5,129 nucleotides of DNA from a bacterium (GTDB lineage: Bacteria; B130-G9), in NCBI GenBank assembly GCA_021160245.1, contig JAGHCW010000243.1, forward strand, positions 1-5,129, written 5' to 3'. The notes below the pieces were generated by a model, which worked only from the letters and a program-made list of their open reading frames with translations, was not told the origin of the DNA and did no database searches. Below are positions 1 through 5,129 of the stretch, piece by piece. Each line of letters begins with the position of its first letter. Position 1 is the first letter of the stretch. A program made the translations under genes and the position numbers.

Positions 1-89
1 CAGCAGTATGGTCTTTCTCGACAACGTGGCTCCGCAATTTCAGGGGGAAACTGGATGCGACTGAAACGGCCTTTGTGACGCGGGCGAGC

Positions 90-132
90 AAATACGCCGC
101 CGCTTTGCCCGCCACTAAATCCGCGGCGATTT
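90..132 (+). terminator. Weak inverted repeat upstream of the protease, possible terminator of an upstream gene
   Basis: AAAT-a-CGCCGC at 90-100 can pair with GCGGCGATTT at 123-132. This gives a ten-pair stem with one bulged base and a 22-base loop. The stretch that follows is moderately T-rich (TTTGTCC, then TTCTTCTT near 150) but has no true U-tract. It could end transcription from a gene to the left or fold in the 5' leader of the protease mRNA. The long loop makes it weak, and chance pairing in GC-rich sequence is a real alternative. Confidence 0.2.
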
Positions 133-167
133 GTCCTGCTTGTCATTCGTTCTTCTTGAGCAAACCT

Positions 168-173
168 GGAGAG
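168..173 (+). promoter_or_regulatory. Ribosome binding site for the protease (decides the start at 180)
   Basis: GGAGAG lies six bases before ATG 180, a near-consensus Shine-Dalgarno at normal spacing. The codons after this ATG encode a classic signal peptide. Together these favour ATG 180 over the in-frame GTG at 75, which is preceded by 'ggccttt' and no purine-rich box. Confidence 0.75.
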
Positions 174-179
174 TACATT

Positions 180-3155
180 ATGTCAAGAGCGCATCTATGG
201 AAACTGAATTGTCTTATCTGCATCACTATCTTTGCCTGTCTTCTAGTCTGGTCATCGTCCCTCGCATACGCCGACTCTGGGGGGGGGGGCGATAATCGCG
301 TGTGGTCCGGCAAGGCACATCGCAGCAGAACGATCCTCCTAGGAAAGCACAAGCAGCGTCCCGCTCAGCCAACGCCAAAGGCTCAGATCATCGACGCGCC
401 TATTCTGTTCAGTGGCGGCGGCGCAACCGAGTCAACTCAATGGTTTGAGGTGGGTGTTAGAAGTTCCAGCACCACCTCGGTCGTGATAGTCGCGACCATA
501 ACTACGGTCCAGATCTGTCCAGCAACCGTCGGAACTCAGCTCTTCCATGAGGTCACGATCAAGGGAACAGAGAAGACAAGTTATCCTGGAGCACCACGGC
601 TTCCGGTTATTCCGCTAATAGTGGCAGTTGACCACGAACGGGAGGTGATTCTCTCCATTGAGGCAACTGGGGCAACCGTGGAGGATGATGTTCGCGTCAT
701 CCCGTCGCAACAGCTTAACGAACCGATAAGCCTCCTCGCAAACGCGTTTACGCTCGATGAAGAAATCTACAATTACGATGAATACTACCCGGACACGACC
801 GCCGTGATCAGTTCGCCAGTGATTCACCGGGGCATAAGGTGTGTGCATCTCAAGATATTTCCCATCCAATGCAATCCGACTATCTCGACAGTGAGGATGT
901 ATCAGACCATCACCGCGACGATAACTTACGGCACGATAAGCACCGTCAACACACTCGAATCAGCGCCAGAGAACGTTGATGCGATGGTCGTGGGCATCCT
1001 TGAGGAGGCGATAATCAACTTCGAGTCACTCGATCTTCAATCGACACTGCCCGAGGGCACGAGGCTTCTGGCTATCATCGCTCAAGATTATTGGAATAAC
1101 GGCGCGCTTCACAATCTACTGGACTGGCACGATTACGAGGGTTTGAAGACCAAGAGAATAATTGCCGAGAGAGAGTTCAATGTTACGACATCTAGCATCG
1201 CGTTGGCTCAAAGGGACTTAAGACACAAGCAACGCGACTGGATAAGGCAAGAGATAATGGATGAGTACTCAACAACTGACCCCTACACCGGTCAAAATAG
1301 TCTGCTTTTTGTCTTACTCGTCGGTGACGTGGATGTCTTGCCGGACGGAGACATAATCTCACAAGGACCCTCATCCACTGGCACAGTGATTGCCGATGGC
1401 AGTTTCCTCTCGTGGTTCGATTGGGACGACAAGGAATACGGATACTATGACTACCTCGGCCCTCGATGGTATCAAGGCGATGCTGGTTACTCGTTTCAGC
1501 TGGATGGAAACAGTGGAATTGATGTCCTGGTTTCCAGAATAACAGGTCAGCTCGACGGTACGAGTGAGGTGACAAGGGTAGCCAATCACTCGCTCGGATA
1601 TGCAACGTATCAGAATAACGATGTAACGGCCTCCGAGGGCTGGCCAACTACGGACTATGCGAGCGATCCCAAGCCGGCCTCTGGCTATCATTGGTCAAGT
1701 AAAGTAAACGTCGTCGGTTTCAAATACGACTCGCTGTGTGGTGGTCGCAACCTCTATTACAACGATCCTAACAATAGTGCCTATCACTGGCGGTTTGTCT
1801 GCTTTTCGCACAGACTGTGGGACATGATCAACACTCTCCCTGGCAGTCCGGCGGACGTGACGCTTATTAATGGTGAGTTTGAGAGCGAACCGACTTTGTT
1901 TGGGGTCCCGTACGGCAATGATGCGCTGCTAGACGGGCGTGACAGCCTTGATATGTACCCGTATTATTATAGGTCCTTCGAAGATGGTCGCACCGTTTCC
2001 TCAATAATGTGTCGAAGGGTAAATGGCTGGAGCGATGGATTAGGTGTGATGTTCTTTCAGGCGCACGGTCAGAAATGCATGTTTCCATGCTGGAACAAGC
2101 TCGATAGTCCACAAAAAGATGATTGTATCTACTGTTTGCAGTCATTTGTGGAGAAGCTCGGTCTCGATTGGGGCTGTCCGTGTGCGACGGGAAGCACGAC
2201 GCGCATGGACTGTACATTCCTTTGTGGCGAGGACCTCACGGTCGATCACATAGCCTCGTTGGAAAACACGTACAAGACGCCCGTGGTCATAGCCTTCTCC
2301 TGTCTAACTACGGCTCTGAAGCAAGTGGGTTCAATAGACGAGAATGATGGGTGGTGGGGTCTTCACTGGACGGACCTGGGCGCCTGGAACTATCCCGCGG
2401 AGGACGCGGAGTGCGATTGCCAGGAGCACTACGCAATTGATGGCTGCTATTCGAAGTCCGATGATGAGGACGCGTATATAGACAGGGAGGATGTACACGG
2501 ATGCCCCATTAGTGAGGAGGCAGTTAACTTGGGCGACCAGGTGGGCGGCGCGCTCGCTTGGTTCGGTACAGCCGGAGTCTATGGGCAGACGATGCCCACA
2601 CTGTTGATGCACAAAATGGTCGAGGCCATCTGGCCCAGCGCGCAGAATCAGCATTATCAACCGAGGCTAGGCGCGATTACCTGGTCGGCTATGATGACCA
2701 TGGCCGGCGAATTTCCCAAGACCTCTGGTGTAAGTCAAAACGATTTTGACAAGGTTACGCGGCAGATGATGTGGATTGGTGATTCGGCTTTGGACATCAG
2801 GACCAAATACCCAAGTTACCTCTATATCACCCCGGATCCGGAGCATCTTTACAAGGTGATTGCACAGCCTCTTGATGAGGGCGAAGAATTTACCGTCTTT
2901 ATGGGCGAGGATGTGGTTTATGACAAAGATAAAAAGTATGATCCCGCGGCATTTGCGCTCGTTACATTTGCTCATGGCGAGCGCGCTCCTGACGGCAAAA
3001 ACTGGGACTGGGAGAAGTACTGGGTCGGAATGACTGACGCCAGTGGTAAGGTGTGGATGCCAGGACTGACCATTGTTAATCCTGATCTCCTGCGAGTTGT
3101 CGCCACAAGACACAACTGCCGGCCAGCATTATTCTGGATTGATCTGAGCCCATGA
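180..3155 (+). CDS. Secreted gingipain-like cysteine protease (peptidase family C25)
   Basis: The product is a predicted 991-residue exported endopeptidase; residues are numbered from ATG 180. Residues 1-31 form a signal peptide: R3 and K8, a hydrophobic core (LICITIFACLLVW), and likely cleavage after AYA31. Residues about 120-250 resemble the C25 prodomain, with 'YPGAPRLPVIPLI' and 'IFPIQCNP'. The catalytic domain starts near residue 296. It shows the C25 landmarks 'LLVGDVDVLP' (380s), 'IDVLVSRITG' (447-456), 'FFQAHGQ' with the presumed catalytic His629, 'VVIAFSCLT' with the presumed nucleophile Cys708, 'GGALAWFGTAG' (789 on) and 'GDSALDIR' (867 on). Residues about 875-991 look like the Ig-like domain that follows C25 catalytic domains. 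His and Cys are 79 residues apart, against 33 in gingipain RgpB, because of a cysteine-rich insertion. A second insertion follows Cys708. No T9SS-type C-terminal sorting domain, LPXTG or dockerin is seen. An 11-G tract lies at codons 34-37. Cleavage specificity cannot be read from the sequence. The family call is firm and the substrate unknown. Confidence 0.9.
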   Translation: MSRAHLWKLNCLICITIFACLLVWSSSLAYADSGGGGDNRVWSGKAHRSRTILLGKHKQRPAQPTPKAQIIDAPILFSGGGATESTQWFEVGVRSSSTTSVVIVATITTVQICPATVGTQLFHEVTIKGTEKTSYPGAPRLPVIPLIVAVDHEREVILSIEATGATVEDDVRVIPSQQLNEPISLLANAFTLDEEIYNYDEYYPDTTAVISSPVIHRGIRCVHLKIFPIQCNPTISTVRMYQTITATITYGTISTVNTLESAPENVDAMVVGILEEAIINFESLDLQSTLPEGTRLLAIIAQDYWNNGALHNLLDWHDYEGLKTKRIIAEREFNVTTSSIALAQRDLRHKQRDWIRQEIMDEYSTTDPYTGQNSLLFVLLVGDVDVLPDGDIISQGPSSTGTVIADGSFLSWFDWDDKEYGYYDYLGPRWYQGDAGYSFQLDGNSGIDVLVSRITGQLDGTSEVTRVANHSLGYATYQNNDVTASEGWPTTDYASDPKPASGYHWSSKVNVVGFKYDSLCGGRNLYYNDPNNSAYHWRFVCFSHRLWDMINTLPGSPADVTLINGEFESEPTLFGVPYGNDALLDGRDSLDMYPYYYRSFEDGRTVSSIMCRRVNGWSDGLGVMFFQAHGQKCMFPCWNKLDSPQKDDCIYCLQSFVEKLGLDWGCPCATGSTTRMDCTFLCGEDLTVDHIASLENTYKTPVVIAFSCLTTALKQVGSIDENDGWWGLHWTDLGAWNYPAEDAECDCQEHYAIDGCYSKSDDEDAYIDREDVHGCPISEEAVNLGDQVGGALAWFGTAGVYGQTMPTLLMHKMVEAIWPSAQNQHYQPRLGAITWSAMMTMAGEFPKTSGVSQNDFDKVTRQMMWIGDSALDIRTKYPSYLYITPDPEHLYKVIAQPLDEGEEFTVFMGEDVVYDKDKKYDPAAFALVTFAHGERAPDGKNWDWEKYWVGMTDASGKVWMPGLTIVNPDLLRVVATRHNCRPALFWIDLSP
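279..289 (+). repeat. Eleven-base poly-G tract inside the protease coding sequence
   Basis: Eleven consecutive G encode Gly34-Gly37 (the last codon is GGC), three residues after the predicted signal-peptidase site. The length as given keeps the long frame open. With ten G the frame would meet TAG at 340-342; with twelve it would meet TAA at 293-295. Poly-G/poly-C tracts of this length are established slipped-strand phase-variation sites in, for example, Campylobacter and Neisseria. That this one varies is inference. Homopolymer sequencing or assembly error is the main alternative. Confidence 0.9.
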
Positions 3156-3203: not shown

Positions 3204-3218
3204 AACCAGGTAAATCGT

Positions 3219-3223
3219 GGAGG
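3219..3223 (+). promoter_or_regulatory. Ribosome binding site of the beta-helix gene
   Basis: GGAGG ends eight bases before ATG 3232, an optimal Shine-Dalgarno arrangement. It fixes the start of the second gene, whose first codons (MTRRLLLLSLFALLW) give a typical signal peptide. Confidence 0.85.
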
Positions 3224-3231
3224 AACCGAAA

Positions 3232-5129
3232 ATGACACGACGCTTGCTTCTGCTTTCATTATTCGCCCTGCTTTGGCCGGCATTAGTCTCGCCGGCCACC
3301 TGCTTCGGCGCGAACTACTACGTTGATGGAACTAATGGCGACGATGGCAATTCGGGAGTCTTGCCTAGTAGGTCCTGGAAGACGATCACGCATGCGCTCG
3401 ATATTGTGCATGGCTCTCCGTCATCGCCGGTGACAGTGCATCTCGCGAAAGGTGTCTATTCGGCGTCCACAAACGGCGAGACCCTCCCACTCGTGATGAG
3501 TAGCCATGTTCGGCTGTTGGGCCAGGGCCCGGAAACAACCGTCGTTGATGCGGAGTACAATGCCCACCACCTGATCCTCTGTACTGCCGTCCAGCAAGCC
3601 ATCATTGAAGGTGTTGGATTGCTCCACTCCTATCCTCTGGGGGATGAGTACAGCGAGGAGGGGGGGTGTCCGGTTATATGCGTCAGCTCATCGCTCTTAT
3701 TGCGCAACTGCGTGATAGCCGAGAACTATGCAATGCTAACCGAGGATGCCGGGGCGATTCTGTGCCGTGACTCGGATTTGACGCTTGAATCGTGTTTGAT
3801 TTCTGACAACGATGCGCATGCACGTTTCGGCCCCGGAGGCTATGGGTCCCCAGGGGCCATGAACTGCGAAGACTCCACGTTGACAATCAGGTCCTCCGTG
3901 TTCGAACGGAACCAACCCGACTCCGTCCTCTGTTTTGGTTGCGTGGTTTCGATCGAGACCTCAAGGCTATCTCAGAATCGAGGTGGGGCCATCAGGACTT
4001 GCCAATCGGCAATGACCATGATTCGTTGTGAGATCAGCGGGCACAGCAGCCACGCGGTCTCCATTGACCGCAGTTCGTTGATCATGCAGCAGTGCATCGT
4101 AGCGGACAACTCTACCCCAGTCATCCAATTTGATCGAGCAGAGGCAGTGATCGACGAATGTACAATACGCATGAACGGAATAGGGACTTCAGCATTTCTC
4201 GGTGGAAATATTCAATGCCTTAGTTCAGAGGTTACGATTAGGCGGAGTTTGATCGCGGATAACGAAGCCGGAATTGCGGCAATTCTTTATTCCACCGCCG
4301 GAGGGTGCGACATTACTTTGCCCGCTGGTTATCTCATCGTGGAAAACACGGCGATCTGCAACAACTCGTCGGATTCTGGAGCGGCGATCTATTGCGAGAA
4401 TGGTTGGGGCAGCAAACCGGAGAGAGAAGTCAAGACAGACCTTCTCTTGGTAAGAAATTGCACAATAGTTGGGAATCGTGTCAGGGCTTCATCCACCCAC
4501 GAGCCTTGCGTGATTGGCAATGGCTGGAACGTTCACTTTGAGGATAACCTAGTATGGGACAACGATGGTATCCTCTTCGATTGGGCGCCCGAATCGCCGA
4601 GCAGCGACAGGTATTTCCAGGTTAGAAACTGCTGCTTGCAGGAGGAGTTTGAGGGCGAGGGGAATGTTGTTGCCGACCCGCTGTTTGTTTCGGGGCCATT
4701 GGGCGATTATTATCTCTCGGCAATCGACGCGGGACAGGAGGCGGATAGCCCATGCATAGACGCCGGCTCAACAAGCGCCTCAATCGTCGGCATGAACAAT
4801 CTGACGACGCGGACGGACGGCGAATTCGATGCGGGCGCAGTTGACATCGGCTACCACTACTCCGCCACGCCACCGACGATCGATTGCGAGGTATCGGACG
4901 GCAGCGACGCACAGGCAAAAACCCTGGACGCACAGCCCTTCCGCCCCGGCGACACGCTCCGCGCCTTAATCACGGTCGAGAACGGTGGCCTCCCCCAATG
5001 GGTGGATATCTACGCTGCATTCATAATGCCCGACGGCACCCTCCTCTGCCTCGTCCCCGAAGGCCTCACAATGGACATCGCGCCCTATCTCTCCTCCATG
5101 CTTCTACCGCAAGGCCTGGACCCGACCTC
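3232..5129 (+). CDS. Secreted right-handed parallel beta-helix protein, 3' end beyond the window
   Basis: The frame is open for 632 codons and has no stop before the window edge, so the gene is partial. Residues 1 to about 27 are a signal peptide: R3 R4, a Leu-rich core, and cleavage somewhere in SPATCFGA. Residues 28 to about 100 match a DUF1565-like cap, with 'NYYVDGTNGDDGNSG', 'SWKTITHAL' and 'VHLAKGVYS'. Residues about 155-480 are some twelve beta-helix coils of the form 'LxLxxCxIxxNxa', for example LTLESCLISDN, LIMQQCIVADN and LLLVRNCTIVGN. A closing module follows, with 'VVADPLFV', 'DYYLSAIDAGQ', 'DSPCIDAGS' and 'DAGAVDIGYHY', common to exported beta-helix proteins of uncultured bacteria. 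From about residue 545 another domain begins ('FRPGDTLRALITVENGG', 'VDIYAAFIMPDGTLLCL'), perhaps a beta-sandwich, and is cut off. Beta-helices include pectate lyases, adhesins and passive scaffolds. No catalytic signature was recognised, so activity is unassigned. It starts 76 bases after the protease and may share its transcript. Confidence 0.88.
   Translation, partial: MTRRLLLLSLFALLWPALVSPATCFGANYYVDGTNGDDGNSGVLPSRSWKTITHALDIVHGSPSSPVTVHLAKGVYSASTNGETLPLVMSSHVRLLGQGPETTVVDAEYNAHHLILCTAVQQAIIEGVGLLHSYPLGDEYSEEGGCPVICVSSSLLLRNCVIAENYAMLTEDAGAILCRDSDLTLESCLISDNDAHARFGPGGYGSPGAMNCEDSTLTIRSSVFERNQPDSVLCFGCVVSIETSRLSQNRGGAIRTCQSAMTMIRCEISGHSSHAVSIDRSSLIMQQCIVADNSTPVIQFDRAEAVIDECTIRMNGIGTSAFLGGNIQCLSSEVTIRRSLIADNEAGIAAILYSTAGGCDITLPAGYLIVENTAICNNSSDSGAAIYCENGWGSKPEREVKTDLLLVRNCTIVGNRVRASSTHEPCVIGNGWNVHFEDNLVWDNDGILFDWAPESPSSDRYFQVRNCCLQEEFEGEGNVVADPLFVSGPLGDYYLSAIDAGQEADSPCIDAGSTSASIVGMNNLTTRTDGEFDAGAVDIGYHYSATPPTIDCEVSDGSDAQAKTLDAQPFRPGDTLRALITVENGGLPQWVDIYAAFIMPDGTLLCLVPEGLTMDIAPYLSSMLLPQGLDPT
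3694..4665 (+). repeat. Array of beta-helix coils within the second gene
   Basis: About twelve degenerate protein-level repeats cover residues about 155-478 of the beta-helix protein. Each has a short strand, an inward Cys/Ser/Asn and then 'xIxxN'. The equivalent inward positions are residues 160, 188, 221, 244, 266, 288, 310, 339, 373, 410, 439 and 467. The central four are exactly 22 residues apart, one standard turn of a right-handed helix. Wider gaps elsewhere mark loops leaving the helix. The DNA itself is not visibly repetitive, so these are old, diverged repeats. Confidence 0.8.

Follow-up and report, generated by a model that had tools for sequence, protein, structure and literature searches.

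The window analysed here, a 5,129-nucleotide stretch that makes up the whole of contig C13, carries on its forward strand a gene (180–3155) for a predicted secreted, gingipain-type cysteine peptidase of 991 amino acids, followed by a gene for a secreted right-handed beta-helix protein (3217–5127, forward strand, cut by the contig end), a neighbour that lies outside the switch discussed below. The first gene product matches the PF08126 propeptide (E = 1e-16, residues 96–282, 60.9 bits against a curated cut-off of 22), PF01364 (E = 3e-10, residues 299–872, 40.4 bits against a curated cut-off of 23) and the pro-domain of gingipain R2 (4ief, E = 2e-8); by these domain matches and its His and Cys it is assigned to peptidase family C25, with proteolytic activity predicted. 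The putative catalytic residues His629 (2064–2066) and Cys708 (2301–2303), both encoded on the forward strand, are the sole invariant His and the sole invariant Cys among 12 C25 proteins of the same genome, in which about 16 C25 matches are encoded.

The protein begins with a predicted signal peptide (residues 1–31, 180–272, forward strand) that reads MSRAHLWKLNCLICITIFACLLVWSSSLAYA with DS immediately following, shows clear n, h and c regions and is placed, by eye, to be cleaved after AYA. On the same strand, a Shine–Dalgarno-like GGAGAG (168–173) stands 6 nt before the ATG at 180, and a probable −10 element, TATGGT (7–12), was read by eye from contigs C179 and C236. The accompanying −35 element TTGACA, also read by eye, lies 18 nt upstream of TATGGT, just outside the window on C179, which is why a sigma-70 consensus scan within the window returned no promoter; the corresponding promoter on C236 reads TTGACA-18-TATAGT.

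The signal peptide directly precedes a run of exactly eleven G (279–289, forward strand), flanked by TCT (276–278) on its 5′ side and by C at 290 and GAT at 291–293 on its 3′ side. Read from the ATG at 180, the codons across the tract are TCT GGG GGG GGG GGC GAT, that is, Gly34–Gly37 in frame with the protease, as the initial annotation had stated in placing the run at codons 34–37 behind the signal peptide. In-silico translation at tract lengths of 8 to 14 G gives a long product of 990–992 residues at 8, 11 and 14 G, a stop after 37–38 residues at 9 and 12 G, and a stop after 53–54 residues at 10 and 13 G. The two stops fall where that annotation had put them, TAA at 293–295 after a change of +1 and TAG at 340–342 after a change of −1 (both forward strand), the latter in the same frame as the state of a paralogue on contig C236. 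Contingency loci are recognized from about 8 or more G or C onwards (PMC5084427), a length that G11 exceeds, and here a one-unit change shifts the frame and ends translation early. Glycine is encoded in this genome by GGG at 20% and by GGC at 47%, and given this usage three consecutive GGG in the Gly4 stretch have a probability of about 0.008.

The host genome comprises 3.43 Mb in 244 contigs and is 94.8% complete. As its EF-G shows 72–74% identity to those of two Candidatus Coatesbacteria MAGs, against no more than 57% for any other match found, we take the host to be a Coatesbacteria-like environmental bacterium; the pathogen setting invoked in the initial annotation does not fit such a MAG, which represents no known pathogen. 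Both MutS1 and MutL are present, and slippage may therefore be slower than in species poor in mismatch repair, the organism being repair-competent as judged by gene content. A pattern and tblastn search of 84,980 species genomes found no close homologue of the protease, and the relatives G001–G003 gave only matches of about 25–29%, over the propeptide.

Within the same genome, tblastn aligns the window protein with the C236 paralogue in two pieces, residues 1–39 (95% identical) and residues 35–991 (56%), which lie in different frames and meet at the tract. Promoter −10, leader, gene start, signal peptide, tract and linker together form a 5′ module (1–449, forward strand) common to both copies, in which DNA identity is 97%, similarity ends abruptly at 449 and the tract is the sole indel site in about 440 bp. 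Over the 53 codons 3′ of the tract dS is 0, and the other 887 codons, from base 450 on, give pS 0.79 and pN 0.32, with synonymous saturation. On these values the protease bodies are judged to be old, diverged and under purifying selection, and the 5′ module appears to have been recently homogenized, most simply by gene conversion; sharing one recent module, the two copies count as one case, not two. Aligned with L043 (C236), window positions 1–449 correspond to reverse-strand positions 445–890, with a sharp edge at 449/450 that probably bounds a gene-conversion tract. At about 250–470 on the same strand of L043, the truncated start of a beta-helix gene (signal peptide plus about 20 amino acids) directly precedes the C236 protease promoter and resembles the remnant of a recombination event; a beta-helix homologue also lies downstream of the C236 paralogue.

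The two copies differ in tract state, TCT-G11-C-GAT in the window and TCT-GGC-G10-C-GAT on C236, a length difference between two recent paralogous copies and not between alleles of one locus. The two extra bases place the C236 body and its signal peptide in different frames, and translation in the signal-peptide frame stops after about 54 residues. That body is open for about 1,000 codons without a stop and keeps the His/Cys dyad, so that it is not an old pseudogene. An alternative ATG in another frame (196–198, forward strand) would, in the C236 state, be continuous with the body and lack the signal peptide; from its equivalent on C236 the open frame reads METELSYLHHYLCLSSSLVIVPRIRRLWRGGGDNRVW... 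/ METELSYLHHYLCLSSSLVIVPRIRRLWRGGG..., and the start METELSYLHHYLCLSSSLVIVPRIRRLWRGGG... does not resemble a signal peptide. Switching between alternative starts is a property described for 5′ tracts (PMC5084427). With the body frame open from this internal ATG, a form lacking the signal peptide is possible, and the OFF state of C236 might block export and not synthesis. Of the proposal that either single-base slip abolishes the protease, the early stops hold, but abolition may be too strong a word for a body whose frame, in the paralogue, is open from an internal start.

The intact out-of-frame body on C236 would also be explained if RNA polymerase or the ribosome slipped on the G run, such that a fraction of the product would be full length at a fixed DNA length, and 10–11 G would provide many overlapping slippery positions. 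We consider this very improbable: an Rfam search of the window, of C201 and of the C236 end found no RNA family and, at this Rfam level, no stimulatory structure near the tract, and the C236 body may just have entered its OFF state recently.

A different concern is the assembly itself, as the tract sits in a repeat common to two contigs, whose copies, the tract excepted, show no difference between 166 and 354, and C13 starts within this repeat, where short-read assembly is least reliable, in a MAG fragmented into 244 contigs. The assembled lengths could then be wrong, and the contrast between ON and OFF could stem from collapsed repeat reads. Compatible with such an error, the first 183 bases of C179 (L080, reverse strand) equal window positions 1–117 and then turn paralogue-type (C236-type) at 118–183, where the contig ends, and the position of several poly-G runs of relatives at contig ends suggests that some are sequencing artefacts. 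Even so, we hold an assembly or consensus error to be unlikely, given that the alleles differ in more than their count (GGC-G10 against G11), that base 355, which separates the copies, is 66 bp from the tract and within one read of it, and that a second tract, on contig C20, has flanks that match an orthologue on both sides. Tract alleles may have been exchanged between contigs; because the two bodies are in the same frame after GATAATCGCG, either assignment of the alleles leaves one copy out of frame. A tract length wrong by a single base could undo the out-of-frame result.

The probable reading of C179 is that it adjoins C13 on the upstream side and had its end assembled into the repeat, or else that it reflects a strain polymorphism. 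Two simpler artefacts were rejected: a pure poly-G artefact of two-colour sequencing, because both tract flanks continue in a homologue, and a 5′ module that is wholly an assembly chimera, because about a dozen positions in its first 170 bases are unlike those of C236 and a separate locus is backed by C179. Contig-end runs of 10–15 G in other genomes (G001 C27; G002 C256; G037 C34, C59, C74 and C103; and C12, C13 and C19 of G008) are probably either sequencing artefacts or assembly breaks caused by the tracts, a caution for poly-G surveys of MAGs.

Scanning the genome for poly-G runs of at least 9, along the lines that the initial annotation had suggested, yielded 14 runs in all and a second gene, unrelated to the protease, with an out-of-frame 5′ tract. 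This methyltransferase gene on C20 (L047 5161–5843, reverse strand; Methyltransf_11, E = 8e-11) has G12 at codon 21 (5223–5234, C20:3767–3778) as part of a (GT)n-G12 stretch, and its ATG frame, MTIAVKRRHLAIRRWL-RRVCVGGGG, is not the one in which the enzyme body, RILNIGCGTIPLPG, is read. In the orthologue from a sister genus (L150, 69% identity), MTIAVKRRHLAIRRWLPGQRGRILNVGCG runs through in a single frame, with the same MTIAVKRRHLAIRRWL start and no G run; by this homology the C20 start codon is confirmed, and the tract is derived and breaks the frame. Methyltransferase genes with poly-G tracts are a typical feature among known contingency loci, as in Campylobacter.

Counted on both strands, runs of at least 8, 9, 10, 11 and 12 G number 31, 14, 8, 4 and 1, against 36.6, 7.9, 1.7, 0.36 and 0.08 expected under a third-order Markov model that was built from 445 kb of the same genome and, because this sample includes the run-bearing contigs, is if anything too generous to chance. 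Poisson tails for runs of at least 9, 10 and 11 are 0.03, 4e-4 and 5e-4; with related copies collapsed, 5 independent contexts of at least 10 G stand against 1.7 expected (p ~ 0.03). Such a heavy tail of run lengths is as expected of slippage-driven growth. By number of runs of at least 10 it takes fourth place among the 41 genomes searched, which makes it tract-rich without being unique. Three of the four coding runs of at least 10 G fall within the first 37 codons, and 5′ runs of at least 7 G/C or at least 8 A/T are absent from all other C25 genes of this genome.

The same survey bears on whether any adaptive switching need be invoked. The poly-G may be neutral, having grown by chance in a Gly linker that tolerates length changes in multiples of three, with C236 recently frameshifted and on its way to becoming a pseudogene. 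Nine of the 14 runs of at least 9 G lie outside recognizable genes, as expected of neutral tract growth and a point against a switch; beta-helix genes (C104, and C301 of the relative G002) carry G9–G11 in mid-gene at clusters of Gly codons, and mismatch repair genes are present. Less readily accommodated by neutral decay are two unrelated genes with out-of-frame 5′ tracts and otherwise clean bodies, the excess of runs of at least 10, and a protease tract that outlived homogenization of the module unbroken by GGC, the preferred Gly codon. We regard neutral decay as possible, and as the strongest competitor to a switch, while giving it clearly less credence.

Several other tracts were observed. 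A leader repeat in four copies (L056:500–1000 and 3503–3999 on C201, L057:1092–1587 on C202, and L140, C120:2557–2994) holds 3 of the nine runs outside recognizable genes, two on C201 and one on C202. Its runs differ by copy (G11, G10, G10 and, interrupted in the C120 copy, G7AGG), and short secreted ORFs, followed in at least 3 copies by a PQQ-like gene, lie about 250 bp downstream of the repeat; the run might tune transcription or belong to an unnamed leader element. The gene for a secreted beta-helix protein on C104 (L048:3576–5540) contains an in-frame G11 at 4656–4666, codon 361 of 655, where a slip would truncate the product. G008, a distantly related genome of 2.6 Mb, has 25 runs of at least 10 G, the highest of the 41 genomes, and may possess a larger repertoire of such switches.

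Taken together, the anatomy of the tract, its two states, the intact OFF body, the second out-of-frame poly-G gene and the excess of runs of at least 10 lead us to favour, at somewhat better than even confidence, a slippage-prone G11 that makes the secreted C25 protease a translationally phase-variable, or contingency, gene. Replication strand slippage would add or remove G; at 8, 11 or 14 G the signal peptide would be in frame with propeptide and protease (ON), and at other lengths translation would end 37–54 residues in (OFF). Alternatively, OFF could be a state in which the body is readable only from the internal start, without the signal peptide, and is not exported. As assembled, the window copy would be ON and the C236 copy OFF. 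The phase-variable protease of the initial annotation is thus supported in part, the genome checks suggested there having turned out largely in its favour: it gains switch anatomy, a paralogue with a different, out-of-frame tract and a second poly-G gene, but change within a clone is a step further: ongoing slippage in the population, its reversibility and any benefit are what we infer from these features. A switch is the best available explanation, ahead of neutral decay, then assembly error and, last, slippage during expression.

Poly-G slippage is a known mechanism of phase variation, and most known switches of this kind come from pathogens and commensals adapted to a host. If the present reading is true, such a switch would govern whether a large protease is exported in a candidate phylum that is uncultured and probably environmental, and would suggest stochastic switching of secreted enzymes outside the host–pathogen setting, with possible uses against phage, against predators or in public-goods competition. 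More speculatively, and in our view rather doubtfully, a Coatesbacteria lineage may possess its own small set of phase-variable genes, comprising a methyltransferase and two secreted C25 proteases, in which the protease switch rides on a recombining 5′ module, and both switch and ON/OFF state are copied between diverged bodies by gene conversion. In the literature searched, whose coverage is incomplete, we found no C25 enzyme described as phase-variable by strand slippage and no direct precedent for phase variation in Coatesbacteria or for homopolymer phase variation in MAGs, so that the mechanism appears to be new both to this lineage and to C25 enzymes in that literature; a review mentions epigenetic phase variation alone, in other species, with a possible role in periodontal pathogens.

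In mechanism the locus would, on balance, be a mononucleotide contingency locus of the ordinary type; its unusual features are the lineage of its host, a C25 protease as target, a tract at the junction with the signal peptide and a recently homogenized 5′ module common to two diverged proteases. Multigene families of surface proteins are known in which 5′ ends are homogenized by gene conversion. The two paralogues resemble such families in their identical promoter and signal-peptide end and diverged bodies, and differ in that only two copies are seen here. With the gingipains of Porphyromonas gingivalis the protease has in common the propeptide and the catalytic His/Cys domain, at low overall identity. 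The G/C contingency genes of Neisseria meningitidis and of Campylobacter jejuni combine 5′ intragenic poly-G of at least 8 with frameshift ON/OFF switching, and encode surface or secreted products and methyltransferases (PMC5084427, PMC8437040), features that would be shared here. In Neisseria, G/C tracts predominate among the strong candidates (PMC5084427). Those loci rest on reads and strain comparisons, whereas ours comes from the assembly of one environmental MAG; it differs further in its few tracts, the presence of MutS/MutL, its C25 protease target and a tract set directly after the signal peptide.
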